Shown here piece by piece: positions 2,766-56,649 of a DNA stretch of 64,000 bases. The DNA comes from Styela clava. Lineage: Eukaryota; Chordata; Ascidiacea; Stolidobranchia; Styelidae. The notes under the pieces were generated by a model that saw nothing but the letters and a program-made list of their open reading frames with translations, was not told the DNA's origin and ran no database searches. The stretch covers positions 22,435,395 to 22,499,394 of the forward strand of contig NC_135250.1 of the NCBI RefSeq assembly GCF_964204865.1, read 5' to 3'. The position numbers were made by a program, and so were the translations under genes. Each line of letters opens with the position of its first letter. Positions within the stretch are counted from its first letter, which is position 1.

Positions 2766-5700
2766 ATGAGAAGTGTGCGCAGTCTGCTTGATTCATTCCC
2801 CTTACGAGTTTTCAAAAATGTCGTCGAGTATTGTCTTGTAGTTATTTTAACGGTAGCGATTGGAGATGTTCTTCGTTTATTCGGCATAAGTATCTTAAGT
2901 AAGTATGAACTATGTTGTTCTGTAAATCAATCAGCATTTGGCTAACTATATGATGGTATTACATGAGAAAGGTCTTCTAACCCCAACTCAAAGCCTATTA
3001 GCATCACTCCTTACAGAGTGTACACGGGCTAGTTTAACAAAGAATTTAAGTGCCTAAAGAAGATTAAGCCGTACCGTGGGAATACTAGTCTTTGATAACT
3101 AACTGCTCTCCTGCAGCTATAGGTAATTTGTATTCAGAAATCAATCGTATCAAATATACCAAATACGATGTAAACTTGATCGATAGTTTTGATTTTAAAC
3201 CTGGTTTGGCACAGATAGAATTCATTAATCATTAAAAATTGACTTACATCGAAATAATGGTGGTAGCGCAAATCTCTCATAATAACCTATGTCAGGGTGG
3301 TCCAAGGTTGTCCTTTATTGTCTGAACACGTTGATCATTATTTGTCATTTATGAAGCTAAAGCATGCAAAAACCACAAAAAAAACTCACTGAAACATACA
3401 GAAATCTTACTATATCTACATTTAGTGCAAGATTTCAAACACTTCATTACGGAGAAAGTGCCATCAGGAAAAAATGAGGTTTTAAATTGTCACCGCAAAA
3501 CTTGCAGACATATTAGTACTGTGGTATTTTCCCTCCCACATCTAGTCAAAAGTCTGTTTGAATTGGTCAGCTTTCCTTTCGAACTCATGCTTACAAAATA
3601 ACTTACAATTAGCTGCAGATTGATTGATTACCGAATTTTGCCAAATTTGAAATACAGAATGGTAAATATATACTAAATTTTCTGACATATAGGCAAAAAA
3701 AATTGTGTTTCTGTTTGGGCTGGTTGCAAAAAAAGACGCGGCGGGAATTATATATATCGTTCGGTCATTACATTATTATTTAGTTATCAGGCATAGCCAA
3801 CCTAGGCTAATAGATTTGATTTTTAGTTTTTTATAAAGCCCATTTTGTTAGCATATATTCACGGCCAAAATAATAGAAAGCCAGTTAACAATTTAGACTA
3901 GCGAAACACATTATTCAACTTCGTTCGTTGCCTCAACTAGCCATAACACTAGTTAATTCAGTAACATTTGTGTTGTAACAATAGGTCAAAAGATTTTCAT
4001 GACGAAACAACACCAAATGCGATTTTTTGTTTACCCTCGCGCAAATGCGACGCGGGCCATAGATACTGAATTTGCGGGCCGTATGGGGCCCGCGGGCCTG
4101 GGTTTGGACCACCCTGTCCTATGTAATAGAAGTGTTCGTTCAATTCAAATTATTTTTACTACCTTCAATCCACATGTAAGGAAACAGACTATGTATGGTA
4201 TCGATAAACTTCCTATGTAATTTTAAACTTTTGAAACTTCATGAACACCCTGTACTTCATATTTTACAGAGTTCATGTCTAGCAGGCATGGAATGGAACC
4301 AACGCTCGAAAATGTTCCTAAATTGTGAGTTACGCTATCGCATTTTCGACCTGTGCTCAGAAATTCCTTCAATAAACAGCATTCAAAAAACTTTTCGTCA
4401 ATACGCCAGCTCAATGATTAAGTGTAATTAATCTACTTCTATTTTAAATAGTTGCAACTAATTAATTATATATACAGCATTCCATAAAACAAACATTTGT
4501 CAATTTCTATTTCGAAGTCCTTTGTCCTTACTTCCGTTGTTGGCATCATGAACTCTTAGTTTTTCTTGACATATGCATTACTCAAATATGAGTAAAATTG
4601 ATATTTTTTTAATTTTAGATCATTTCCATGAATGAGAAAGTATTGAATCCGTTCAACGCGTTGTATGACCAATTTTGTTTTACGATATTTTACATTTCAG
4701 TACATTGGGATCACTTCGACATATCGGGAGAAAATATTATCAAGATATTTTTAGAAGTGCGGTAATTGGGCTGAGGGCACCAAATTCCACAGTTTATGAT
4801 CAAAAAACTTTGAAAAAACGCAGGTCAGATGGAATGAATTTTTTTTATCAAATAGTTGCATATTTGAGATAGCTTCTATTGAATGAACGATTGTAAAAGT
4901 GTTAGGCATTCTCATGTTGAAATCTTATGGCCCTTTCAAAAATAGTATTAAATTTGTACGTCGTTAATATATATCAACAATTGCTTGTACCAAACCTTGT
5001 TCAGAACGAAATGGGCGTTACTTCAAAATTGAGAGAAGTTGTATAACCTTCAATACTAAATTGATATTTTTTATTGAGTACAAGAAGTGTAATTTCACAA
5101 ACTATAATACATGATTTCATTGTTGTAAGCTTATTCTATAAAAATAAATTTTCCTTGATGGTATGATTTATGTTTGTGTTTAGAATTCTTGATTTCAGTA
5201 ACCCAGGACGACCTCTCGTTCTCATATTTGGATCATGCACCTGACCCCCATTTCTGAAAGGGATTGAGCGTCTCCCTACTCTTATGGAGGAATATCGTTC
5301 AAAAGTTGATTTTGTTGTGATATATATTCAAGAAGCTCATGCCACGGACAGTAATTGGCATTTCAAGGACATGAAGTAAGTGAAGTAAGAAACAGCGTTA
5401 GGTTCAAGTCATTAAACTCCAAGTGGAGCCACAAACCATATAGGTCTTCAGAAATTCGACTTCCATGAATTGATAATTTCGACTCCAAATAAGATCGTAC
5501 TAAAAAGTATTACGTTTTGTATATTTTCTCAGGCACCACATTTTTCTTCATAAAAGTCTTCATGATCGGCAGTCTGCCGCAGAAATTCTTAAAGACTACC
5601 TTTCGTGCCCTTTGGTGTTGGATGGAATAGAAAATGAAGCAACGAAGCAATATGGTACGATTCCGGATCGTATGGCAATCATCTACAACGGTTGCTTAGA

Positions 5701-5785
5701 ATATATCAGTGCGAAAGGACCTTTTGGGTTTAAAGTAGAGGAAATGATAATTGCTTTAAATCATCTATTACAACGAAACGAATAG
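2766..5785 (+). CDS. Iodothyronine-deiodinase-like selenoprotein, copy 1 (5 exons)
   Basis: Family role: a thioredoxin-fold, membrane-anchored reductive deiodinase that removes iodine from thyroid-hormone-like iodothyronines using selenocysteine. Exons: 2766-2902 (or 2898), a short weak exon ending at 4216 (start 4181 or 4130), 4701-4823, 5184-5375 and 5533-5785, giving about 246-263 aa. Exon 1 encodes an N-terminal hydrophobic segment after an L-L-D-S-F-P motif. Exon 3 carries the R-A-P-N-S-T motif. Exon 4 carries G-S-C-T-[TGA]-P-P-F with TGA at 5242-5244, then E-A-H-A-T-D with the conserved histidine. Exon 5 carries the Y-G-T-I-P-D-R-M thioredoxin-fold segment. The TGA is read as selenocysteine because the motif is conserved in the neighbouring paralog and SECIS hairpins lie downstream. 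Splice phases of exons 3-5 match the paralog. Exon 2 and the exon 1 donor are uncertain, with two GT donors 4 nt apart. The subtype and substrate cannot be assigned. Confidence 0.85.
3293..4116. mobile_element. hAT-like non-autonomous element in deiodinase 1 intron 1
   Basis: The ends are inverted repeats, CAGGGTGGTCCAA on the left and TTGGACCACCCTG on the right. Flanks are 8-bp near-duplications ACCTATGT (3285-3292) and TCCTATGT (4117-4124), 7 of 8 matching. The GC-rich GGGCCCGCGGGCC near the right end is typical of such elements. There is no transposase frame. Confidence 0.85.
5242..5244 (+). other. Selenocysteine TGA codon, deiodinase copy 1
   Basis: In-frame TGA sits between Thr and Pro-Pro-Phe in the active-site motif of exon 4. 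The reading frame continues 131 nt to the donor and through the last exon to TAG. The same position is TGA in the paralog. Confidence 0.9.
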
Positions 5786-6082
5786 GAATTTTTATACCAT
5801 TCAAGTTATCAGTATGGCCTTCAATGTTACAGTACCAATGGGGCATTCGCTGTTATAATGCTCAATACTATGTTTGTATATATAGCAAGTAAGCTATCCC
5901 CTTAATTTCGAACTGCCAGTAAAAGATATTTCGATAGGTATATCACCTAGAAATCTTTGAAGGCCAGCAACGTTAAACAAGGCTGTCACTTTTATTTTTC
6001 TGTTCCAAAGTAATTTGTATTTTTGATTTCTTTGCTACATTATGAGAAATGTTATTTAAAATATCAAACATGTAAAGAATTT

Positions 6083-6131
6083 ATGAAGGTACATAAGAAA
6101 ATTGCGGAAAGCAACCTTTAGTTCCAGATGG
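6083..6131 (+). promoter_or_regulatory. SECIS-like hairpin, copy 1
   Basis: The 5' core ATGA at 6083-6086 faces a 3' core AGAT at 6126-6129. Between them helix GGTAC/GTTCC has one T-T mismatch relative to the other copies. An unpaired AAAA run follows, then a mini-stem TTGC/GCAA. This matches the type II SECIS layout that directs selenocysteine insertion. Confidence 0.75.
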
Positions 6132-6274
6132 TTTATTTCTAAGCATGCTAACTGTTTTTATAACGTTTCCAAGTAAATCATGTTTTTTTGTTTTGTTCCA
6201 AAATTATTGTATTTTTTATTTCTTTGCTACATTATGAGAAATGTTATTTAAAATATCAAACATGTAAAGAATTC

Positions 6275-6323
6275 ATGAAGGTACATAAGAAAATTGCAAG
6301 AAGCAACCTTTAGTACCAGATGG
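6275..6323 (+). promoter_or_regulatory. SECIS-like hairpin, copy 2
   Basis: ATGA at 6275-6278 and AGAT at 6318-6321 form the core. The basal helix GGTAC/GTACC is perfect. The apical AAAA run and TTGC/GCAA mini-stem are intact. Confidence 0.8.
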
Positions 6324-6401
6324 TTTATTTCTATGCATGCTAACTGTTTCAATAACATTTCCAAATACATATACACAACTCTCCTAATATATATGCATAT
6401 G

Positions 6402-6407
6402 AATAAA
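6402..6407 (+). promoter_or_regulatory. Candidate polyadenylation signal inside the SECIS array
   Basis: AATAAA lies after SECIS copy 2. Equivalent hexamers occur at 6630-6635 (after copy 3) and 7040-7045 (after copy 5). Alternative 3' ends would include different numbers of hairpins. Confidence 0.45.
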
Positions 6408-6503
6408 ATCATGTTGATTTTTTGTTTCAAAGTTATTGTATTTTTCATTTCTTTGCTACATTATGAGAAATGTTATTTAAAATATCAAACATGTAGAGAA
6501 TTC

Positions 6504-6551
6504 ATGAAGGTACATAAGAAAATTGCGAGAAGCAACCTTTAGTACCAGATG
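6504..6551 (+). promoter_or_regulatory. SECIS-like hairpin, copy 3
   Basis: ATGA at 6504-6507 and AGAT at 6547-6550 form the core, with GGTAC/GTACC helix, AAAA run and TTGC/GCAA mini-stem. A poly-T run replaces part of the 3' outer strand immediately after the core. Confidence 0.8.
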
Positions 6552-6733
6552 TTTTTTTTTTTCTATGCATGCTAACTGTTTTTATAACATTTCCAAGTAC
6601 ATATACACAACTTTTCTAGTATGCATATTAATAAAATCATGTTTTGTTTTTTTGTTCCAAAGTTATTTGTATTTTAATTCCTTTGCTACATTATGAAAAA
6701 TGTTATTTAAAATATCAAACATGTAAAGAATTC

Positions 6734-6782
6734 ATGAAGGTACATGAGAAAATTGCGGAAAGCAACCTTAAGTACCAGATGG
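6734..6782 (+). promoter_or_regulatory. SECIS-like hairpin, copy 4
   Basis: ATGA at 6734-6737 and AGAT at 6777-6780 form the core. Two base changes lie inside the helix (CATGAG for CATAAG, CTTAAG for CTTTAG) and roughly keep the pairing. Helix ends, AAAA run and mini-stem are kept. Confidence 0.78.
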
Positions 6783-6926
6783 TTTATTTCTATGCATGCT
6801 AACTGTCTTTATAACATTTCCAAGTAAATCATGTTTTGTTTTATCGTTCCAAAGTTATTTGTATTTTTTATTTCTTTGCTACATTATGGGAAATGCTATT
6901 TAAAATATCAAACCTGTAAAGAATTC

Positions 6927-6977
6927 ATGAAGGTACATAAGAAAATTGCGAGAAGCAACCTTTAGTACCATTCTATG
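6927..6977 (+). promoter_or_regulatory. SECIS-like hairpin, copy 5, 3' core deleted
   Basis: The 5' core ATGA (6927-6930), helix and mini-stem are present. After GTACC the sequence jumps straight to TTCTATGCATG, so the AGATGGTTTA stretch with the 3' G-A half of the core is missing. It is probably non-functional. Confidence 0.75.
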
Positions 6978-7060
6978 CATGCTAACTGTTTTTATAACAT
7001 TTCCAAGTACATATCCACAACTCTCCTAATGTGCATATTAATAAAATTACCAAACAAGAG

Positions 7061-10000
7061 AGCAATACCCAAATATATGAGCATTAAGATTCAATAATAG
7101 CACCGGTAGACTAAGCGACTTACACTGAAATGTGGATGAGAACCAGGTTCGCAAAATTAGGAACAAGTAGCCAGTCACGCTTGACGGAATGAAAACAGTG
7201 CTGCCAAATATAAAATAAACAGAAAACTTTACGGTGAATAATCGAATCACATAATTTCATTTCGCAACAAAAAAAAACATTACCAAGTCTAAAAACAACA
7301 AAAATTTAGAAAAACAATCTATATGGTCAGTTAGTGTTCAACAATACAGTTCTTGTTAATATAAGGACCAAGTTGAGATTGATTGGGGATGTTTTGCAAA
7401 ATATGCCTCGCCACTAATATTAAAGAAGGAAATTAAATAGTTTCTTGAAAGAAAAGAATAAATTTTACAGCAGTATGGGGAGGAACATTCCCAAATTATA
7501 CCAATGCTTCAGTTTTATAACAAGAGAGCTATGCTCAAATATATGGACACGTAGCGCCACATAATTTTGAAGACGTCATAGCAAAAAATAAAAGTAATAG
7601 GAGGAAAATTCTGGAGAAAATTCCATTTTTAACCACTGAAAATTTCAAAGCAGTTGGTCCAGTAATCAAAGAGAAAAGCGATTTCCTCAAAACGTGTCAA
7701 TGAACAAGAACAACGAAACGATCGTTACGTCCACTAAACGTGTCCAATAAAAATGTCCTCGAATACTCACATAAGAGCTATGCTCTACTGAAATGGCACA
7801 CGCTTTTGGAGCCATACCAAATTGCATACCGTACTGGTAGCGCGGAGTTAGGTGTCAATATCACCGTCAAGAGATTATACCGGATTAGAGTTTTTGAAAA
7901 TATAATTGTGACGTAATTCCATTCTATATGTTTGTGATTCGCATTTCAAGCTCTGCGACTAATTTTTTTTTTTTTTGTAGAATATTTCTGTATTGGGGAT
8001 AAAGTAATGATTAAAGTGCAGTTCGGACGATGACTTGACATGTGGGTCCGTATGTTTGTTCTCGTAATATTCAGTTAAGAAAACTGGTATTTAAGCTCTA
8101 CACTTTTTTCTATCTCATTTAATTCAACGAAACTGCTCAAATTGGTAGCCAAGGTTGAATCACCAATCCTTATTTACCATCAATAACTTATGTTACATTG
8201 TAAATATTCGTGTATGACAAACAACGACCAAGTTATATACAGAGCAATTCAATTAACTTTTGTAGCCGTTTTTTTAGCTTTATATGCGTGTGGCAAATAA
8301 GAAGAGCAATTTGTTTGCGCGTCTTCGAACGCCGTGCCGTGTCATGCTTGCTTAGTAATATTTTTATTATAAAGGTTTTGAGACTTTTGACAATAGTCAT
8401 GAACGCCATAGACCTAAATGACGCAATTCAATTAATCTAGATGAAGACGAATAGGGAGAAAGACCGCCTGTTAAACAGAGCCCAATCACGGAAGTCAAAG
8501 TAATATTGAAAGGGTAACTGATAGAAGAGGATCTAGCAAGTACTCTCTCTTGTCTAAGATGTATAAATATATAATTTTTAGAACAAAGATGACAGACTTT
8601 GGCAGGTGACTGAAGGCAACATTTTTAAAGAAACAGTCGAGGGTAAAGGAGTTTTTATGACTTAATTCCGAAACAACTGTATACTCTTTAGATAACAACA
8701 TTTTTTAACGTTTCAAAAATTGTTTTTACATCATGTCTCGAATATTGGTAGTGTCTTCATCTGGCTATGAATTGAGGTTTCAGCAGTATGATAAATAGCC
8801 AATCCAATATATCGTTTATGTATGATTCTTTCTTGGTTATTAGTTCGAAAAAAAACTGCAATTTTTTCAAATGCATACTTGAAACTCCGAGTCAGGTAAA
8901 ATATAAATATCTTACACTCGCATAGAGTTTGCTTTAACTTGGGTCAATTTTTCATCCAACATAAAATCAATGTTTATACCATAAGAAATAGTTTAAAAAG
9001 TGTTCAGTTAGATTAATTTTACTTCAGATCCACCAGTATGAAATAATCATGTAATATTTTTTAACGATTGCTAACCAGAATATGCATTGCGCTCGGGGCA
9101 TTGATCTGCCTTTACCGAACGGCAAATATGTCTTGTTCATATTTATGTACCTTCAGGCGCTCATACTCGACAAATGCTTTGGATTTGGCCAACATTTAAA
9201 ACCTTGCCTCTCTCACTGAACGCCTAGCTCAGGGCTACTCAACTGGTGGACCGCGGTCCGAATCCAGACCTTTGGAGTATTCAATTTGGACCACAGCTGT
9301 CTATTGACTTTGAATATCACCGTTTCTTTTTATTTCACAAATGTGATGTAATGCATTTTGCATTTTTCGCTAAATCACTGAGAAAAAAATTGCCATAGCA
9401 ATATAAGTTTCTCAGAGCAACAATTCACTTGTTTACTCCCTTAGCATTAGCTAATCAACAAGATGTATTATAGTGGCGTATTATAGTGGCGTAAAACAAA
9501 AGTTTTAGCGGCTGTTTGGATACATTACTCCCAGTTTTTTATATAAGGTGGTAAACATTAAATTGTTTTGGGGCTTTGCATGCTATTTGTCAAGTTTTAC
9601 TTGTATTTTTGAAATTTAAAATAGAACAATTATTGATAACTTATAAATAAAATAACTTTGCTATTGGACACGTAGTCGACTAATGAATCGTTTTGCTAAA
9701 ATCATTGTGCTCTTGTATTTGGTGAAACGATACTCTTGTTTGCATAGGTAAAATATATTTTTTGAAATGCCCGGACCGCGATAACTTTTGAATTTTGTGT
9801 TCGGACCTTTGGTGAGAGTAGTTGAGTAGCCATGCTAGCCGATAAACATGTGGTTTTTCGTTCTTTTAAGTAAATCAAAATCAATACAGATTTGCAGTAT
9901 AGAAACATATCGCTTCGTAGTATCGTAGTCAGGACATCTAGAGAACCACAGCTTGTATTGTTAGGTACACAGTATTTAAATAGAGAACAGCACATATCAT

Positions 10001-10535: not shown

Positions 10536-13517
10536 ATGGCAAGTTTATATAGCTTGCTTGACTCTTTTCCAGTCAGAGTTTTCAAAAATGTCGTCGAATA
10601 CTTATTACTCGTCATCACATTGGCTATTATGAATTTTTTCCGCCTGTTCGGCGTTAATATTTTTGGTAAGTATGGTGGCGTACATGATGCTATGCTATAA
10701 CTACGTCGTAGCTGAAGACACAAAACAGTGGATGTATCTTATACCTTCAAGTTTGGATTTCGAAAATTCTTTCAACTAGTATTGAGCCGCAATCTACCTG
10801 TTCAAACAGACTTGATTTACATACGTAATTGATTTTTTAACTTAACTTTGGATTCTATGGCAGATCCTGGAATGAAATTTTAAATGAGAGTCTGAAATGA
10901 AGCCCATAGGCCATAATACCTGTTTTTCGCCAATTTTTCGATTTTAATATGGTTTATTTCACATTATCTAGGCCTCGTGTCAAAACTACACCCCCCGAAC
11001 ATCAAAAAACAAAAGGTGAAGCCACCTATTGATGAGCTTCCAAAATTGTAAGTACCGACAAGACAGGTTACCCGATATTCACAATTTTACCTATTCGATA
11101 CCTTTTTCAAATTTGTAGTAACTCCGTAGTATGGGTGTAGGTATTGTTGCATAATATTCAGCAAGTACTATGTTATACAGGCCTGGGCAAGTTGCGACCC
11201 GCGGGCCACATCCGGCCCGCGGCAACGTTTTATCCGGCCCGCGACCAAATTTCTAGATCTAGAAAAACGAGTTATTATATATTTATTGGCGACGAGATGC
11301 TAAAGGTAAATGAAGGAGTGAAGCTGCAACCAACCTAAATCTAGATTAAAGAGCGACAATATAACATATATACTAAAAAATAAACAGAAGCAATATATGT
11401 TTTAATTTAGGAGGCTTCGACAGATTAAAAACGCTGTTGTTGAAATTAGAAACTGAAAAATTTCATGTGTCCTCGAAATCATACTATGACTGAAGTTGAA
11501 AGACAGTCGGTTTGGCCCGCGATGTATATTTTGATCAATTTTAAAACTATCAATTCTATCTATCTAATTCTAAAATCACCGACGGGGCCTTACATAAAAG
11601 ATAATTAATGTGAATTAAATTCAATCGATTTTTATGGTAGCCTACTAAAATAAATTTTACTCTGCGTGGTTTTATCACAGACGTAAGGATTTTTCTAGCA
11701 GTAAAATCTTCAAAACAGAGCGAAGTCGATTTTGTAAGAACGAATCAGATTGGGCGAATTCTCAAAACACGGATAAAAATGATCTGGCAACTTACGCCAC
11801 ATTTTCATGTCCGCGGAATGAGGTGCTATTTCAAAGCAGTAATGCTTATGTTTTATCAACGCAGCCGCGGTTAAGTTGAGAACAATAAAGCGAAACATTT
11901 TAAATAAGCCGTATAGCAAAAAATGCATCAAAACCAAGTATATTCCGGTAGTTTATCTCACATTTCTATAGCCACAGTACAATAGATATAGTACTTTGTT
12001 TTATTTAAATGTGTAATAAAATACGACAAAAACGCGCAATGTATGTTGACTTTACTTAGTTCGGCCCGGTATGTTGACTTTACTTAGTACTGCATTTTGA
12101 ACACTCAATGTGGCCCGATAGCAACAATAATTGCCCAACCCCGATGTTATACTTTATAGTCTGCTAAACAGGCCTAGAACCGAAATTCTTTTGGGAGTCT
12201 CACTATATATATATATCTTATTCAAATCAAACTCGTTCGAGTTTCAGATTAAGTTCTTGTTAAAAAAGAGTAGATAGAACAATGCAATTCTCCACTGACA
12301 GTCTTAACTTTTATTACCGCAATTTTAGCACATTGGGTTTTCTTCGACACGTAGGTAAAAAATACCTTTTGGACATTCAAAGAACTGCAGTGATTGGACG
12401 AAAAGCACCGAATTCAACAATTTACGATCATGAAACTTTAGAAAAAAAGAAGTGAGTCTTTAAAAATAGATGTATTTCTCCTATTTGAAATGGAATTTCC
12501 TATATATATATAAACTAAAGTTGTAAAATATTAGAGTACTAGGATCAATTTTATCAAGATTCAAAATCCAATCATTTTTTTTTTTTGGATGAAACTATAT
12601 TATGTGTTCATAGTACAAGCAAAAAGGTTAAGTCCTTCCGTTGGCACCAGGACATGTTTTAGAAAACATTGGTTTACTAATTCCATATAGTATATCAATA
12701 CTTATAACTACAATTTTTGTTACCTATTTCAATGAGATCATTCTCTCCTTTCCAGGATACTAGACTACAGTAACATTGGGCGCCCACTGGTCCTCATTTT
12801 TGGATCATGTACTTGACCTCCGTTTATCAGCGGGATTGAACGTCTCCCTGCTCTTATAGAGGAATATCGTTCGAAAGTTGATTTTTTAGTAATATACGTT
12901 CAAGAAGCCCATGCCACTGATAGTAATTGGCATATGAAAAGCATGAAGTAAGTACGCTCCGGACGTCGATAAAGATATAATTACATTTTCAAACTGCTTT
13001 CAGGTAGAATCAAGGAAAACGATTCTTTTACATGTATTTTGATAGTTTTGTCAAGTGCAGGGTTTACGGTGAAATGCAGAGCTTGTACACAAAATGGTTG
13101 CTCTGCAAACAGTACGGTCTACAATTTGCTGATATGTTGTTTTCAATAATTATGAATTCGTTATTTTAATACACATTGCTCTCGGTTGCGACACCCGGGG
13201 CAGTAATAGACATACAAATTTGTTTTATTTTCTATTTGTTAATTAACATTGTATACATTCACAGATACCACATTTCCCTTCATAAAAGTCTCCAGAATCG
13301 TCAGTCTGCCGCAGAAAATCTTAAAGACTACTTTTCGTGCCCTTTGGTGTTGGATGGAATAGAAAATGAGGCAACGAAGCAATATGGTACGATTCCGGAT
13401 CGTATGGCAATTATCTACAACGGTTGCTTAGAATATATCAGTGCGAAAGGACCTCTGGGATTTAAAGTGGATGAAATGCAAAAAGCTCTGAATAACATAT
13501 TGCAACAATCTGAGTAG
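10536..13517 (+). CDS. Iodothyronine-deiodinase-like selenoprotein, copy 2 (5 exons)
   Basis: Exons 10536-10665, 10972-11047, 12329-12451, 12756-12947 and 13265-13517 all have GT-AG borders and join in frame to give 257 aa. That is within the usual size of deiodinases. Exon 1 encodes an N-terminal membrane anchor after a short L-L-D-S-F-P-V-R-V segment. Exon 2 is a basic, proline-rich linker ending I-D-E-L-P-K. Exon 3 has K-A-P-N-S-T. Exon 4 has G-S-C-T-[TGA]-P-P-F with TGA at 12814-12816 and E-A-H-A-T-D. Exon 5 completes the thioredoxin-like fold. A well-formed SECIS follows at 14372-14442. By family, this is a membrane reductase acting on iodinated thyronines; substrate is not deducible. 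It is a tandem duplicate of the gene at 2766-5785, and exon 5 is far more alike than the other exons. Confidence 0.92.
11178..12143. mobile_element. hAT-like non-autonomous element in deiodinase 2 intron 2
   Basis: The left end CAGGCCTGGGCAAG and right end TTGCCCAACCCCG are imperfect inverted repeats. Exact 8-bp duplications ATGTTATA flank it (11170-11177 and 12144-12151). The left end has the GCCCGCGGGCC block common in hAT elements. A short internal duplication of TATGTTGACTTTACTTAGT lies near 12041-12090. A related fragment sits near 48505-48670. Confidence 0.88.
12814..12816 (+). other. Selenocysteine TGA codon, deiodinase copy 2
   Basis: TGA lies at the catalytic position of the S-C-T-U-P-P-F motif. 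The frame is open on both sides of it across five exons, and a SECIS lies downstream. Confidence 0.92.
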
Positions 13518-14371
13518 ACATTAACGTGGTGTGATATCGTTCAAAACACTTATTATAGATTGATTGTGCGTCGATATGATAATGATCCCGAACCCTTTCT
13601 GACGACAAACCGACTCTGTTACGATGTTGAACTTTGACCCGTCTTAGTTTTTTAAAGAAATGAATCAAAGAAAATAGGGGTAGCCTAATAGTAATTTCCT
13701 TCTATATATACTACCAAAGCATCTTTCTCCCAGAATCATGATATAAACTTTCCAAATTTTCACGCTTAAAACTGATGACACCTATACGTTAAAATGCAGC
13801 AAGTTACAGTTATGTGCGAAATGTAAAACTAAAATTTTTTGCCCGTCGATTCCTTGGCATTAAAATTCATAGAGTTCGATCGAAACTAATGTTAGACCAA
13901 CTGATCTACGTTATGTTATAGGTTAATAGAAGAAACAAAATATTTAAATACTTATTTTATTTTGTGTTTATCGGTTGGCGTAATTTATATCACTTCATAT
14001 ATATGGTCTATGTGTTTATTTTTGTACATAATTTATTAATAAAAATTATTCTATATATATAAAAAAATAAATAAAAAATACTGGCTAAACAGTAAATCTG
14101 CATTATCTCGAAATTAGGAGAATATCATATTAATTAAAACTTTTTAGTGGAAATGATACGAGAGAACCAAAAATTATGATTTTCATTAGTTTTTACCGAA
14201 ATTGAGAACAATCCTTTTTTGACGACAGTCTGAACGGTCAAAAACCTTAATCTGTTCTATGTCATATTCTAAATTATTCTTCCTAAATAATTCTACAACT
14301 TCTTATTTATTTTTTCATTATAGAGTAAAGTGTTAATTACAAGAAATGGTATGTATAATAACAATAAATAT

Positions 14372-14442
14372 GTTCAGAATTTATGACGGTACAGAAGAAA
14401 ATTGCTGAGAGCAGATTTCTGTACCAGAGAGTTTTTCTGAAC
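14372..14442 (+). promoter_or_regulatory. SECIS element of deiodinase copy 2
   Basis: The outer helix GTTCAGAA (14372-14379) pairs with TTCTGAAC (14435-14442). The core is ATGA (14383-14386) facing AGAG (14426-14429). The inner helix GGTACAGAA pairs with TTCTGTACC without mismatch. An unpaired AAAA run at 14398-14401 is followed by the mini-stem TGCT/AGCA. This is a complete type II SECIS, about 866 nt after the stop, so the 3'-UTR must reach at least here. Confidence 0.9.
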
Positions 14443-14727
14443 ACGTTTGCTGTTGCTATACCAAGATCATTCCTACTACGCAATTGAAATATTTGTAATT
14501 TTAGTGAATTAAACTTATTCATTGCATCAATTTATTCAAATTAGTTGATTGGTGGAGGAAAACCACAGTATCGCCTGAAATTTCGTCATAACGTACCGTT
14601 GTTTTTAACAACTGATGGTGAGATGATCGCATGCTTGGTGAAATTTGCGAACGGCTTGCAAAAGCAATTTGGAACGTATTTTCAGGGCTAGTTGGCATAA
14701 AATTACGGCAATTAAGGCTACTTAGTG

Positions 14728-17367: not shown

Positions 17368-20300
17368 ATGGCGACTCTTGTGGAAATCTTGGATAAGACT
17401 GTGTCACCGGGTAACTTTATTGCTATAAATATTATTTCTCTAATTAAGCTTGTATTTTGAATAATCGTTTTCATGAAATCATGGCTCGATGATTGGCGCA
17501 ACATTCACTGTGTTAGGAACAAGCTTTCCATCGCATCTGTGATTAACTTGTGTGAATTCGAATGTTTGAATCTCATAGTTTTACGTGGGAGCCGGGAGAA
17601 TTGCTGGACTCCTCACTTCCGTAGTGCTGTAGTGTAATTCACTTGACCACTGGTCAGTTACGGCTTTCCCACTATCGAGCTCATGCATCTGAAACAAATA
17701 ACAGGTTATCTTTTTCCATATCTGACTTGTACAGGATGCGCCACATGATTAGTCGATATTACCACCTATCCTTCATTGCAGCAAATATGAAAATCGTATT
17801 CCTATCCTTTTTTGCAAATTTCTGAAATTTAATATTTACTGGTAATAGTAATAGTTTATATATATATACACCTGTGACAGAATTTAGAAAAAAAACCTGG
17901 GGAAATTTAGAATATAAAGGTTTTCATAAAGTATTGTATTCATATTCTTTTTCAGACCCAAATGATATTAAGCAGGCACAAGGATTTCTGGAACAAGCCG
18001 CACAAAGCAGTCTTGCGGAATTTCTGGTCAGCTTATGTCAAGTTTTGGCAAACCCTGGAAACAGCCAAGTTTCGAGAATGGCTGCTGGTCTGCAGGTGAT
18101 TGTCAAATATTTTTTAGATTGCTGCGCACTAAAAAATCAAAAAACTGCGGCACACTTATCACATAATAAGTTTTCAAAATTGTACAATCCGCAGATGTTA
18201 TTGATGAATGCACATTTTTCTGTTCATAAGCACACATTCATTTCGTCAATGTACCAAAATCTGCAAAGCCATGAATGTGAATTACAATTTACTTCTGATT
18301 GATGCTATATAACAGTCACACTAAACACTATTGCTACTCTGCTAATTCAAAAATATCCATGGCATCATAATGTTACATGTTACACAATTTGACATCCACT
18401 TTCATCGAGTGTATGTTTTAGATGAGTTGAATGCTCTCAACTTGAATCTGAAAAAAGTTTGATTAGATATTTGTTAATTTACATAAATTGTATCACCCTT
18501 CATTTATGTTTTCAAGATAAAAAATTATACAACTTCAAAAGACCAAACTGCCAGGCTCGATAATCAGAAACGTTGGCTGTCTCTAAATGAAGCAGCTCGA
18601 TCAGAAGTTAAAAAACTGGTAAGTATGACCTTTACATTACCATAAGCATTTTCCAATGAGGTGATGGTTTTTATGTGAAATGTTTCAGGTGCTGAAAGCA
18701 TAGTGTGAGATCTCTGTATGCAGTATGAAATAGAGTTCAATCAATTTATTGCTATTTCAGAATGTTTTTAAAAAAATAGAATAACATGGTTGTTGGGTCT
18801 CTTAATAAAAGGGGCCCAGGTCTTTTCCACTCATGATAAGTTGACACAATAAGGTCTTTTCCACTCATGATAAGTTGACACAATAAGGTCTTTTCCACTC
18901 ATGATAAGTTGACACAATAAGGTCTTTTCCACTCATGATAAGTTGACACAATAAGGTCTTTTCCACTCATGATAAGTTGACACAATAAGGTCTTTTCCAC
19001 TCATGATAAGTTGACACAATACTAATATTTATTGTAATATCTCAGGTTCTTCAAGCATTGGGCACAGAAACTAACAGACCTTCATCAGCGGCACAAGTAA
19101 TTGCATCAATCGCATGTGCTGAAATACCTTTAGATGGATGGAAAGAGCTTATTCCTCAACTTGTGCAAAGTGTGACTGCAGAAACAAGCACTGAACATTT
19201 GAAGGAGGGAGCACTGGAGGCTATCGGATACATTTGTGCAGATATGGTAATGTGAATGAATATTTTCATGGCACTGTATACTGACATGCAATGCATGATG
19301 CCCAGTTGGCAAATTAGTAGTAAGCAACTGTATGGTTTAAGAACTTGTGACTCACAGAGAAAGCTATTGCATGTCATATTGGTGGTCCTGTTTCCTGGTG
19401 ACTATTTATTACTACTGACAAATGTACTATTCTGTTGCTTGAAACAACATCATAGATCTGAATCATGGATATCTCGTTGCTGACACTATCTTGTCTATAT
19501 TACATATGCTTATTGAAATATATATAAGGTTACAATCAAAATACTATGATTAGTCGTGCTGTGGTTAATAACAGGATGCTGAATTAGTGTTACAATTATT
19601 ATTATGATCTGAACTTTCAGAATTTTTCCCTCAAATGTTTTCAGTCGATAAACATGGTTGGCTGTTAATAACTTTACAATCAGTGCACATACCAGACAAA
19701 AGAAAAGACATTTATGTGGAATTGAGTATTTTTATACCAATTTGTATATACTAACGTGTAATTTCATCTAATTGTAATCTAATTGTTCATCTTCATGTAA
19801 TTTTTATATTTTTAGCAGCTCTTCGCTTTCTAGTGGTCAATTGTAACTTTGCTCAGCAATCAATCCTTTCAGTTCCTAAGTGAATGCATGTGACAACCGT
19901 GCTTTGAGCAAATTTCCTCAAAAAGAAAAAATCTTTTTTTCTTCAATCTGTATATCGTAATTAAAATTACAGTTTATTGTGGGTCATTTTTTCAACTACA
20001 GCTCCAAACTTTTAGGGAATGCAAATTTCAAAAAATAAACTGTGTTGTATGCAAGCTTCGCACAACGAATGTTTGGAACGCTTCGCACAACGAATGTTTG
20101 GAACGCTTCGCCAAATCAATTTTTTTGAGTTTCTATGTAAAAATTTTGATTTCCATCGCCACCAAGAAATGTCTCAAATTCTGACTAAATCAAAATCTGA
20201 TAAAAACAAATCAAACTCGACTCCATGCCTCATATAGCTCTTTAGCTCTCGATGGAACACAAAATAATATTTGTCATCATTTTCTTCTGTGTCAGGATCC

Positions 20301-39347: not shown

Positions 39348-42300
39348 ATGTCGGACTCCGAATCTGAACCAGAACAAACTATTGCTGAAGATGTTGTAGT
39401 CACCAAATATAAAATGGCTGGTGATATGGCGAACAGTAAGTATATATTACATTCTTCTTATCATTGTGATGATATACAGATTTTTGACCCATCCGCGTCC
39501 CATAGGTTTGTGGATGACACCCAATACATCATTTATCAGCATTGAAAGATTTACAGACTTTTGGCCCAACATTATTTCAGAAGACGAGGTGGCATTCATC
39601 AGGGTCAAAATTAATTTTTTAATTTGCATTGTCTGATTTTCAGACTTTAAAATGGTGATAATAGTGGCCAAAATTTTTCACTGAAACCTAGTAAATATTT
39701 TACAACCTAGAGTAAAAGTCCGAACCAAAATTTTCCTTATCTGGAATCGGTGGTAAATGAATATAGACTCCACAACCCAGACATATCGTTATGGGATAAG
39801 AGGCAAATAAGGAACGACAACCTAGTTCAATACACAGTATTTTAAAATCTATCCTAAAAATGTTCCACAATTCTTAAGTGCTGTGTAATAGCAAAATTTT
39901 TTATAATACTTTTATAGAATCACCTGTTTGTACGATTTTTTAACCGGAAATGTTAAATAATTCATAAAATCGAGCATTTACTATGTGACATATAAGTAGT
40001 ACTTTCGTATTACCGGTATTTTGCACATTCTCAAGGTATATAAATTTTCGTTTCATAGTCTTGTTTATAAATTATAATCATCTATTATCCTCTAGGCATA
40101 TTGAAGAAACTTATCACAAAATGCGTGGAGGGAGCGAATGCTATTGAATTATGTAAAGAGGGTGATAAGTTAATAGAAGATGAGACGTCAAAGGTTTTCA
40201 AGAAAGAAAAAGAAATGCTGAAAGGTGAGAAAAATATGACTGTCTGGAAAAAGCAAAGAAACATTGTTATTATATTAAAATGAATAATTTATTACTATTA
40301 TCTCGCTTTATGTATGTTTATGGTGATGTCAGCTTGTTCTTTTATATTTATTATAAAAGAATGAAAAATTATAAAAAATTGTTTTTCCAATTAAAAGTAA
40401 CGAATATCAACAGCAATTTTCACACGACAATTTTCGGAAGAAATCCCTGAGCCCCAGGTCAGAAGTTGAATCGAAGCACTGAGTTGAGCATGACTCTGAG
40501 CCATTTAATCGAGATACTCGAGTAACTTCGAGTCTCTGATAAATAATGCATCAAGTCGAGTCAATAACTCAAGTCTCCCTAATTCTGCTTTAAGGCAGTT
40601 GAATGAAATATTGTTTAATTCTTTGTCGTAGTCTCAGAAGTTTTTTTTAAGTATTGGTTTAAAGAGCTTATAAATCAAACTGACAAGGAAAATTATTTTA
40701 AAATGAGTAAATCACTCCAAGAAGCAGGTTTGGGGAGGCCCGAGTCATTGACTCTACTCGAGTTGGACTATACTCAAAATGACTTGAGTCATCTAAATCA
40801 AATAACTCTGACTCATACTCAACTAACCAGTGTGATTGACGCTACGTCGGAATTGGCTCGAGACTCTCATCTAACCACGACTTGCGCTCAGGGATTCCGA
40901 AAAAGGTCATATGACAAAACCACTTTTTTCATTTGTAAATAAAATGGTAATAATTACAATTTAAGCTTTCTTGATCCTTAGAACAAGCATGATCATAGGA
41001 TATTACCAATTCAATTTTATCCAAGCAGGAATATTTATATTTTTTGCAGTGGAAATAGATCAACCAATTTCGTTTTTCATATCTTTTTCTCTATAAATGA
41101 TGTTATATTTCAGGTGTTGGATTCCCAACATGCATCTCTGTGAACAATTGCGTTTGTCATTATTCACCATTGAACAGCGAGAAAGAAATTTTTCTCAAGA
41201 ATGGAGACATTGTTAAAATGTAAGTTTATTGTTGTTATGCTTGTCGCTGGAAATCACTTTCTCCACAACTAATGAAGCAATCAATGGTAATACTCACTAA
41301 AATGTTATTACCGTATTTATTCAATTGTAACGCGCACTCGTGTATAACGCGCACCTTTAAATTTTGAATGAAAATTGGTATAAAATTCTTTTTTTTATTT
41401 TTTCTCTACTAACTACTGGTAAGCACATAAGGTAACAACTCACAGCATGAACAAAAATTTATTAAAAGCACACAGTAATTCAAAACTCTTCAAAATCGGA
41501 TTCAGTCTCTGATTCACCAAACAACTGTTCGATTTCTGTTTGGGTTATGTTTAAATCAGTGTCCCAATCGGCGGGAACATCACTTTCAACCTCTTCTTCT
41601 GACCCTGATTTTGAATCCCACAACAAGTCGTCTTCTGTACCATCCATACTATTGCTAATGCCCGTCTTTAAAAAACTTTTGATGACCATTTCTTTTGGGA
41701 TGCCCTCCCATGACGCCTTGACCCAGGATGTAACAAGACATAAACCAGGCTTCTTAAGATTTCCTCCAGCAGTCAACTCTTTGTCGTCGGTTTTCATCCA
41801 GGCAATCCATTTCTCCCGAATTCTGTCTTTGAAAGGTTTATTTAACACGACATCCAATGGCTGAAGAATAGAGGTTAGTCCACCTGGAATCACAGATTGA
41901 AAGGTGTTTAGAGTTTTAACCTTCGCCTTAACAGTGTCTGTCAAATGTGATCGGAACTGGTCCCATACGAGCATGGACTTTTTCTTCAATAGGGCACCTG
42001 GCCTAGCATCCCAAACTTTGTTGAGCCATAAAATGATCCCCTCCTCATCCATCCATCCTTTAGGATGACAGTGAATCACAACACCTGGCGGCAAATAAAT
42101 ATTCTCAACGCAGCGGGATTGTCAAACGCATGCTGAGCTGTCGCATGTGCGTGTGCTTGCACGAAATCGAACGCTTGCACGAATGTCAAACGCACGCTGA
42201 GCTGTCGCATGTGCGTGTGCTTGCACGAAATCGTCCTGCATTGGAATGTGCATCGTTTCAGATGTTTAAAACCACATTTTCAATACCGCTTTTCTCAGAC

Positions 42301-51995: not shown

Positions 51996-52484
51996 TATAG
52001 CAACTAACCCCCAAATGTACCCCATTTCATGTTGAAATCATCATGACAAAGTTAATTTTTCCCAAAATTCGAACAAAGACTTTCGTAGGAATCAAATTAC
52101 ACCAGGTTTAAGAACATAACAAGTTCCACCCAGTCATTATCAAATTAAAATCTATATTCTCAAGACCTTTGGCACTGATTGAAAGAATTATATCTAAGTT
52201 CCCATCCGTACGATGTACCTAATTACCCTTGTTGAGATAATAGGAATTTCTGTTTATAACGTGAATCACGAGCTCACGTTTACAGTATTTAATAAGGTTT
52301 ATGATCAACGTATAAATACTACTCCGATATCTTTCGATAGAGAGAAGACGATGTAAATCATTCTAAGCTAGTCTGGATAAATGTTATAAGATTTATATTC
52401 TGTGTGTTGTGGAAATATACGGTAACATCCATTTACAAATAATATGCTATAAATACCATTCATTTACCAAATATATATGCTATA
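51996..52484 (+). repeat. Left LTR
   Basis: 489 bp, TATAGCA...TGCTATA ends. TATA-like TATAAATA at 52311-52318. No difference from the right LTR was noticed. Confidence 0.93.
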
Positions 52485-52487
52485 AAT

Positions 52488-52503: not shown

Positions 52504-53838
52504 TGGAAACACCACCCTTTAATTGATTGCCCTCAATACCAAACAACTGTTACTGAACTTATTTTACATTATAATTCTTCTAATCAGATTTACCGCCTAG
52601 ATTTTCCAAAACTTGGGCAATCAATCCATAACTGGGGTTCATGTGGCAAGTCAGTTAAAAGATGTTTTAAGTCTGATACTTTTTGTACCAATAATGGTTT
52701 GTTATTCGAAACGCAACAATGCATTGCACTTGATGGTTCATCCCTTTTTACTCTTAAATATCCCGCCTTTAATTACGATTATACTGTAAAGAATTTTTCA
52801 GAATCTTCTCCTCTAATTGGGTTTATTCAAGAAAGCACTGATAGGGTTTCCGAGGTAATAAACAAATTGACAGCAGATATTAATTATTTGGAATGCCAAA
52901 TTGAAAGCATTCTAACCACTAATATTAAACTCCTGTCTAAACAATACCCCGGTAAGATCTTAAGTCAGTTACTAGGTGGGAACAGAGCAGCTATCACCGT
53001 GGGTGATATATTGACCGAAATTGAATGCCAACGTATTAACGTTACCGTTCTTAGGAACCTCTTTTTACAGGGTAAATATGCTACCCGACCTTTAGTGCAC
53101 TTTATTAATAATAGCAATGAAACGATCATTGCACAAATATTCCCTGATTCTAACGCTTATGTGGGTATTCATTTTTTTGAAAATTATACGCCTGGTCGTA
53201 TATTTACGTTTCAAATTGACGGTCGGTTCTATAACTACGTCAATTATACTTTAAATCATGCGGATATGCATGTAAAATTTCTGAGACCCACATTCAAGCC
53301 TTTTGTCGACAATTTTAATCCTATCGATTACAATGAAGCATATAACGAATTACCAAGGGGACACCAGGGTTATGATGATATTAATAATATGTTATTATCA
53401 ATCAGCCACATTAACCTTATTCGAGAACGAATATTAAGTGAGCAAACCCTAACTAATGCAGATAGCACATCAGACACTGATACTGATGCTATCTCACATG
53501 AAGTGCAAGACACTTTTGTTCATGCCCTCTCCTTCATTAAGACGTCAATTTTATCAGGTATTTATATGCTCTTATTCCATTTATCTCTCATTTGGGCCAC
53601 TATTTGGACCGTTTGTTTTATCAAGAAACTTTGCCCAAAACTGAGAGATGAAGGACTTCCTAGAATACAACGGCTTCGGCAATACTTGGCTGCTCGCAGG
53701 GAACAAGTGAACCCTGTTGAACCACCTCAACCTCTTGTGCAAAACAATAGACAAGATCAGGGGGGTCAAATATATCAATCCAGACCAAATCCCAATAATA
53801 GATCAAATTCGAACTTATACCCTAGTCTGGCAGACTAG
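52504..53838 (+). pseudogene. 5'-truncated envelope-like glycoprotein frame
   Basis: An open frame of 444 codons runs from just after the primer site to TAG at 53836-53838. No in-frame ATG occurs until well inside, and there is no signal peptide, so the N-terminus is missing. The frame has clustered cysteines early, many N-x-S/T sites, a heptad-like segment, then one hydrophobic membrane span near the C-terminus followed by a basic, proline- and glutamine-rich cytoplasmic tail. That layout fits a retroelement envelope protein of class I fusion type. The exact envelope family was not recognised. It is intact in frame but lacks an initiator. Confidence 0.65.
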
Positions 53839-56150: not shown

Positions 56151-56639
56151 TATAGCAACTAACCCCCAAATGTACCCCATTTCATGTTGAAATCATCATG
56201 ACAAAGTTAATTTTTCCCAAAATTCGAACAAAGACTTTCGTAGGAATCAAATTACACCAGGTTTAAGAACATAACAAGTTCCACCCAGTCATTATCAAAT
56301 TAAAATCTATATTCTCAAGACCTTTGGCACTGATTGAAAGAATTATATCTAAGTTCCCATCCGTACGATGTACCTAATTACCCTTGTTGAGATAATAGGA
56401 ATTTCTGTTTATAACGTGAATCACGAGCTCACGTTTACAGTATTTAATAAGGTTTATGATCAACGTATAAATACTACTCCGATATCTTTCGATAGAGAGA
56501 AGACGATGTAAATCATTCTAAGCTAGTCTGGATAAATGTTATAAGATTTATATTCTGTGTGTTGTGGAAATATACGGTAACATCCATTTACAAATAATAT
56601 GCTATAAATACCATTCATTTACCAAATATATATGCTATA
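56151..56639 (+). repeat. Right LTR
   Basis: 489 bp, same length and, by eye, same sequence as the left LTR. Followed by the AACA target duplication. Confidence 0.93.
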
Positions 56640-56649
56640 AACATACCGG

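Follow-up and report, generated by a model that had tools for sequence, protein, structure and literature searches.

A textbook selenoprotein message carries one SECIS element, and selenoprotein P is the usual exception. Genes with a single selenocysteine (Sec) codon and two SECIS elements have also been published. In the passages concerned, PMC3473315 reports deiodinase gene clusters in amphioxus and in placozoans, and describes the amphioxus deiodinase Bf.DI_b as carrying two SECIS elements, a state that it puts down to non-reciprocal recombination. The single-Sec gene Gpx_a of Nematostella likewise has two elements (PMC3473315), as does human Sep15, in which the upstream element is reported to be non-functional (PMC2874816).

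Here we analyze a 64-kb stretch of Styela clava DNA (the window; C1:22435395-22499394), near the start of which a single-Sec deiodinase gene, gene A, is followed by five tandem SECIS-derived units. The array is confirmed, and it is unusually long; two-SECIS single-Sec genes are already known. An original prediction, made from the letters of the window, had held that no array of this kind was described. For at least three copies this stands among the matches listed from the open-access literature, where no natural gene had more than two SECIS elements; for two copies it does not, as the single-Sec genes with two elements show (PMC3473315, PMC2874816). In the passages matched, the "four SECIS" of PMC5323020 and the "three SECIS" of PMC3328465 are separate constructs or elements, not parts of one natural gene. 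The reading that we argue for, and consider likely, is that the array is a tandemly multiplied 3′-end module of the message of a Sec-type deiodinase, its surplus copies being mainly redundant.

Three clustered deiodinase genes

The window (G+C 35%, animal DNA) holds two intact deiodinase genes near its start, in the same orientation, and a search of the whole assembly (376.6 Mb, 379 contigs) placed a third just before it. Positions given without a contig are those of the window.

2766..5785, + strand: gene A, deiodinase; five coding exons (2766-2898, 4270-4324, 4701-4823, 5184-5375, 5533-5785; GT/AG joins, open frame), 251 aa, stop codon TAG at 5783-5785
10536..13517, + strand: gene B, paralogous deiodinase; exons 10536-10665, 10972-11047, 12329-12451, 12756-12947 and 13265-13517 (GT/AG joins, open frame), 257 aa, Sec TGA at 12814-12816
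C1:22430198-22433341, just before the window: gene Z, third deiodinase

All three genes have a single TGA, which lies in the motif GSCTUPPF; in gene A it occupies 5242-5244 (codon checked). The protein of gene A matches Pfam T4_deiodinase (PF00837, E = 4.9e-50, 170.5 bits), and that of gene B matches the same family. In the list of solved relatives, type III deiodinase appears at E = 3.3e-35 and type II at E = 3.4e-24; a type I chain is absent. The product of gene A is thus predicted to be an iodothyronine deiodinase with Sec in its active-site motif, its solved relatives being named type III and type II. Of the label "deiodinase 1" given to it originally, the family part holds (PF00837, 170.5 bits) and the type is not supported, type I being absent from the listed relatives.

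Gene Z is the counterpart of LOC120347387 in Styela clava; the database protein of that locus lacks the Sec exon (64 residues). With those 64 residues set aside, our gene Z protein and the database protein differ at 1 of 187 residues. The public protein is a typical selenoprotein misannotation, and annotators should be warned that it skips the Sec exon.

Several other features of the window were recorded. An importin-beta-like gene, with exons around 17370-19250 and an IBN_N domain in a piece joined by eye, contains six perfect 34-bp tandem repeats (18818-19021). A piece of a DDE_1 transposase lies on the − strand at 41480-42121 (E = 1.4e-24). A 444-aa open reading frame (52504-53835, + strand) has a weak Pfam match to the ectodomain of herpesvirus glycoprotein B (26.6 bits against a cut-off of 43, E = 4.8e-6), and two like repeats lie near it at 52426-52487 and 56581-56641; it may be an LTR element's env-like gene. 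The phage collection that we searched gave no match, as expected.

Layout of the array

Behind the stop codon of gene A, five tandem units fill positions 5986-7075. We set these boundaries ourselves; Tandem Repeats Finder gives 5990-6826.

5786..5985, + strand: 3′ UTR of gene A ahead of the array; 191 of its 200 bases (95.5%) agree with the corresponding stretch of gene Z
5986..6177, + strand: unit 1, short (192 bp); SECIS 6075-6141, AGTAAA at 6172, then G/U-rich DNA
6178..6406, + strand: unit 2, long (229 bp); SECIS 6267-6333 with both cores, AATAAA at 6402
6407..6636, + strand: unit 3, long (230 bp); SECIS 6496-6560 with both cores, AATAAA at 6630
6637..6829, + strand: unit 4, short (193 bp); SECIS 6726-6792 with both cores, AGTAAA at 6823
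6830..7075, + strand: unit 5, long (246 bp); SECIS remnant from 6927, AATAAA at 7040
14373..14441, + strand: the one SECIS behind gene B, a strong element; 34.1 bits with Rfam SECIS_1 (E = 9.9e-6), fold z −4.89 against shuffles

Over their well-aligned core, the five units are 93-97% alike in pairwise comparison, and they come in two lengths, the long ones (units 2, 3 and 5) having an added tail that ends in AATAAA. The elements that had been read from the sequence are largely there: ATGA, AAAA and TTGC/GCAA occur in five of five units, as claimed, and the AGAT core is kept in four and lost in one, namely unit 5, which compared with unit 2 is missing 10 bases that include the GAT of the 3′ core. 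The GGTAC/GTACC helix, claimed for every unit, is whole in four of the five; unit 1 reads GTTCC in place of GTACC, which puts a U-U mismatch into helix II. Helix II of unit 4 is the best paired within the array. The distance from the UGA to the SECIS runs from about 681 nt (unit 1) to 1525 nt (unit 5), and is 1249 nt in gene B.

Poly(A)-signal-like sites between the units

A poly(A)-signal-like hexamer stands at or close to the end of every unit. It is AATAAA in the long units and AGTAAA, near the junction, in the short ones; the AATAAA of unit 2 takes its last base from the first base of unit 3. Behind each inner hexamer, the following unit opens with G/U-rich DNA (12-13 of 14 bases). Such G/U-richness, as found behind the AATAAA at 6402 and at 6630, is reached by 9% and 2%, respectively, of the 230 AATAAA in the window, whereas the terminal AATAAA at 7040 has 8 of 14 G/U behind it, and 90% of the window's AATAAA do equally well or better. 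With this G/U-rich DNA behind it, each of units 1-4 plausibly constitutes a SECIS plus a predicted cleavage site. The internal poly(A) signals that had been proposed are therefore present as poly(A)-signal-like sites followed by G/U-rich DNA. All three of the AATAAA counted as internal exist (6402, 6630, 7040); two of them are internal and the third closes the last unit.

These sites bear on how much of the array enters the message. Cleavage at the first good site would leave only the first module or modules in the mRNA and the remaining array untranscribed or unused, as the 12-13 of 14 G/U behind AGTAAA 6172 and AATAAA 6402 and 6630, set beside the 8 of 14 behind AATAAA 7040, might suggest. 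We regard this as possible but rather unlikely. AGTAAA is a weak poly(A) signal; unit 1, the sole copy kept after cleavage at the first site, is the weakest of those with both cores; and the same end closes the arrays of genes Z and A (38 of 40 bases), as an ancestral 3′ end would.

The units as SECIS elements

By its position, the array would belong to the 3′ UTR, and so to the mRNA, of gene A, which has a Sec UGA in frame. To assess its units, we used Rfam SECIS_1 (RF00031), for which the gathering cut-off is 35 bits. The element of gene B aligns to the model end to end and, at 34.1 bits, falls just under the cut-off. In narrow scans, SECIS_1 positions 1-64 align on units 1-4 end to end and in the expected register, with 12.7, 16.4, 19.3 and 15.4 bits, all below the cut-off. 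The corresponding E values (5.8, 0.57, 0.096 and 1.1) cover all 4227 Rfam families, and for one family predicted beforehand would thus be about 4000 times smaller. Narrow stretches were required: a scan of the whole 64-kb window at the gathering cut-off returned zero matches, and an E-value scan of a 1.5-kb stretch missed the SECIS. Behind gene Z, a narrow scan listed one of its two units.

In the SECIS_1 alignment, the AUGA, AAA and GA positions are in register in the gene B element and in units 1-4; the two sides of the non-Watson-Crick quartet (5′ AUGA and 3′ GA) stand where a form II element has them. The apical part, with AAAA 11 nt past the AUGA and the TTGC/GCAA mini-helix, is present in five of five units. 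Helix II pairs at 10 of 10 positions in gene B, 9 of 10 in unit 4, 8 of 10 in units 2 and 3, and 7 of 10 in unit 1.

We also performed a SECIS-shape scan, which joins a pattern (AUGA, 10-13 nt, unpaired AA, GA, closed helix II) to a fold. At a threshold of −6 kcal/mol or lower, units 2, 3 and 4 (−8.0 to −10.7 kcal/mol) and the gene B element were found in the 64 kb, on the + strand only; the − strand of the window was empty at this threshold, and 60 dinucleotide shuffles gave a mean of 0.05 per strand. Relaxing the threshold to −4 kcal/mol added unit 1 and a site at 10684, where shuffles average 0.17. Both units of gene Z pass the scan. When folded freely, units 2, 3 and 4 adopt helix II and the mini-helix, and the best fold of unit 1 is not a SECIS. 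If the quartet is forced to stay unpaired, units 1-4 pay 1.7-2.6 kcal/mol to take the SECIS state, compared with 0.7 kcal/mol for the gene B element. Covariation was uninformative: both partners had changed in 1 of 14 pairs, a count that 411 of the 500 shuffles also reached.

Because of these scan, Rfam and folding results, units 2-4 look good as SECIS elements, unit 1 looks doubtful and unit 5 looks dead. What had been proposed as a SECIS array behind a selenoprotein gene is borne out as a set of SECIS-derived repeats, kin of the single SECIS of gene B. The number proposed, up to four working elements, was overstated: units 2-4 form the shape, and unit 1 is mismatched and has a non-SECIS best fold.

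The genome-wide Rfam search is weak as a SECIS census because it scored 150 of 7261 candidates and its list lacks gene B's 34-bit element. It listed at least six SECIS matches elsewhere in the genome at 23.5-31.9 bits, all below 35 bits yet above the array copies. The six listed all pass a slightly laxer shape scan at −8.5 to −13.7 kcal/mol, with units 2-4 inside the range. Three protein pieces picked by eye beside these matches comprise two glutathione peroxidases and one piece without a Pfam match. A near-identical SECIS-shape pair lies on C18 (L024 and L026), about 8 kb apart on the same strand. Two unlinked deiodinase-like loci, at C1:16.08 Mb and C18:14.43 Mb, each have one candidate by a laxer scan on the gene's strand, the one on C18 being weak (−5.7 kcal/mol).

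Kinship and distribution of the units

The 3′ UTR of gene A aligns with that of gene B along roughly 150 bp, scoring 56 where 200 shuffles score at most 26, and with the gene B SECIS masked the score drops to 22, within the shuffled range. This best alignment belongs to unit 1 (56, ~150 bp) and covers 14312-14460 on the gene B side; the other units score 38-50 against the gene B region, and shuffles of unit 3 (n = 500) reach at most 26. By blastn, the array units are 73-78% identical to the gene B element. Judged by these alignments, they are homologous to gene B's single SECIS.

To see where else the element occurs, we searched the 376.6 Mb for a core pattern of 25 bases, allowing up to 3 mismatches. 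It occurs at nine places, eight of which are the copies in the cluster (two in gene Z, five in gene A, one in gene B); the ninth, on another contig, has 3 mismatches. A reversed control pattern gave 0 matches in the same 376.6 Mb. The element therefore sits only behind the deiodinase cluster, bar that one 3-mismatch match. The full array matches itself and the 3′ UTR of gene Z and nothing else, in a search that leaves out words of very high frequency. Dispersal of the unit as an ordinary satellite, the finding that the original prediction had named as speaking against it, is contradicted genome-wide by the core-pattern search. We accordingly rejected the idea that an ordinary satellite, or a dispersed repeat, came to lie behind the gene by chance; it has the tandem structure alone in its favor, and given the confinement of both core pattern and full array we think it extremely improbable.

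Repeats of about 200 bp in tandem are error-prone in assembly, and collapsed or misjoined reads could have added units to an array with fewer true copies. We think such an assembly or haplotype artefact very unlikely: all five units differ (93-97% alike over the core) and have private changes and indels, and the gene Z array independently has two units.

History of the cluster

Genes Z and A are a close pair (dN 0.042, dS 0.16 over 250 codons). From the last AATAAA onward, 38 of 40 bases are common to both, and the match behind the two arrays ends about 40 bases past the start of that hexamer. Because of this agreement, a multi-unit array may predate the Z/A split, its numbers having later shifted by unequal exchange. 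Behind the array of gene Z, after about C1:22434050, a reverse-transcriptase-like fragment was seen by eye.

Gene B appears from its divergence to be the older paralogue. Between A and B, dS is 1.31 in exons 3-4 and 0.36 in exon 5, and the last exons (5533-5785 in A, 13265-13517 in B) share an identical run of 42 bp at 5681-5722. The low exon 5 value and this run suggest that gene conversion between the two last exons is probable. With all five of its inner branches open, the unit tree gives no order of duplication.

Copy number and selection

Among the five units of gene A, 3 of 42 non-loop SECIS columns vary, fewer in proportion than the 32 of 136 in the flanks (p = 0.025, in a post hoc split of the A units alone), and a 47-column block directly upstream of the SECIS shows similar conservation (5 of 47 variable). 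This hint of constraint is lost when the units of gene Z are added. Over the seven units of genes A and Z, the figures are 6 of 42 for the non-loop SECIS and 24 of 123 for the flanks (p = 0.50), and no excess constraint on the SECIS is detectable. With p = 0.025 for five units and p = 0.50 for seven, we rejected this test as evidence for function. Within gene A's units, the SECIS has changed mainly in its terminal loop, where 3 of 5 columns vary, compared with 3 of the 42 remaining columns (p = 0.011).

These results bear on a role for the array in dosage or tuning, in which weak SECIS elements would act jointly and a poly(A)-set copy number would tune Sec insertion in deiodinase A. We consider this unlikely. 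We give it some room because gene A's copies are weaker than gene B's single element, and the poly(A)-signal-like sites between copies, the concentration of changes in the terminal loop and the human SELENOP message, in which SECIS number does change with alternative poly(A) use (PMC5133445), are all in keeping with it. Against it, gene A carries a single Sec codon, paralogue B has a single SECIS, and the second SECIS of the amphioxus deiodinase was judged unnecessary in the passage concerned (PMC3473315). Moreover, two of the five gene A copies (units 1 and 5) are damaged and the SECIS varies as its flanks do, and for these reasons selection for dosage is not supported; redundant copies after passive duplication are probably the best explanation.

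Discussion

In the reading that we favor, a redundant, tandemly multiplied 3′-end module, unequal exchange in the tandem deiodinase cluster would have taken the SECIS number from one to two to five, a route put forward earlier for the two-SECIS deiodinase of amphioxus (PMC3473315). Any single intact copy, likeliest unit 2, 3 or 4, would recruit the SECIS-binding protein and the Sec-tRNA elongation factor, and this recruitment would have the single UGA at 5242 decoded as selenocysteine. The choice of poly(A) site would set whether the message contains unit 1, units 1-2, units 1-3, units 1-4 or all five. The surplus copies would be mainly redundant, which is why units 1 and 5 could decay. More speculatively, and in our view improbably, the copy number of the SECIS-plus-poly(A) module (1, 2, 5) could be an evolvable dial, poly(A) choice giving about one to four both-core SECIS elements and so setting how the UGA is read when selenium is scarce.

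Whichever holds, one, two and five related SECIS elements on sister genes of one species are a ready-made natural experiment on whether SECIS number limits selenocysteine insertion or one element is enough. The cluster also suggests a route to SECIS arrays, by way of repeated 3′-end modules in an unstable gene cluster.

Compared with Rfam SECIS_1, gene B just misses the 35-bit cut-off and units 1-4 clearly miss it; out of ten helix II positions, one is unpaired in unit 4, two in units 2 and 3, and three in unit 1. Selenoprotein P resembles gene A in that poly(A) choice can set the SECIS count of the message, and as described in PMC5133445 it has ten Sec codons and two SECIS elements that differ in form and role. 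Gene A, in contrast, has one Sec codon and near-identical SECIS copies. Ciona intestinalis SelW1 is likewise a tunicate single-Sec gene with more than one form II SECIS; it belongs to another gene family and has two elements, and the passage on it describes no tandem array of alike units (PMC2874816). Amphioxus Bf.DI_b is, like gene A, a clustered single-Sec deiodinase with more than one SECIS (PMC3473315). Where Bf.DI_b is described with two elements, Styela has five tandem units in gene A, four of them with both cores, and two in gene Z, and each Styela unit, set against that account (PMC3473315), has a poly(A)-signal-like hexamer at or close to its end.
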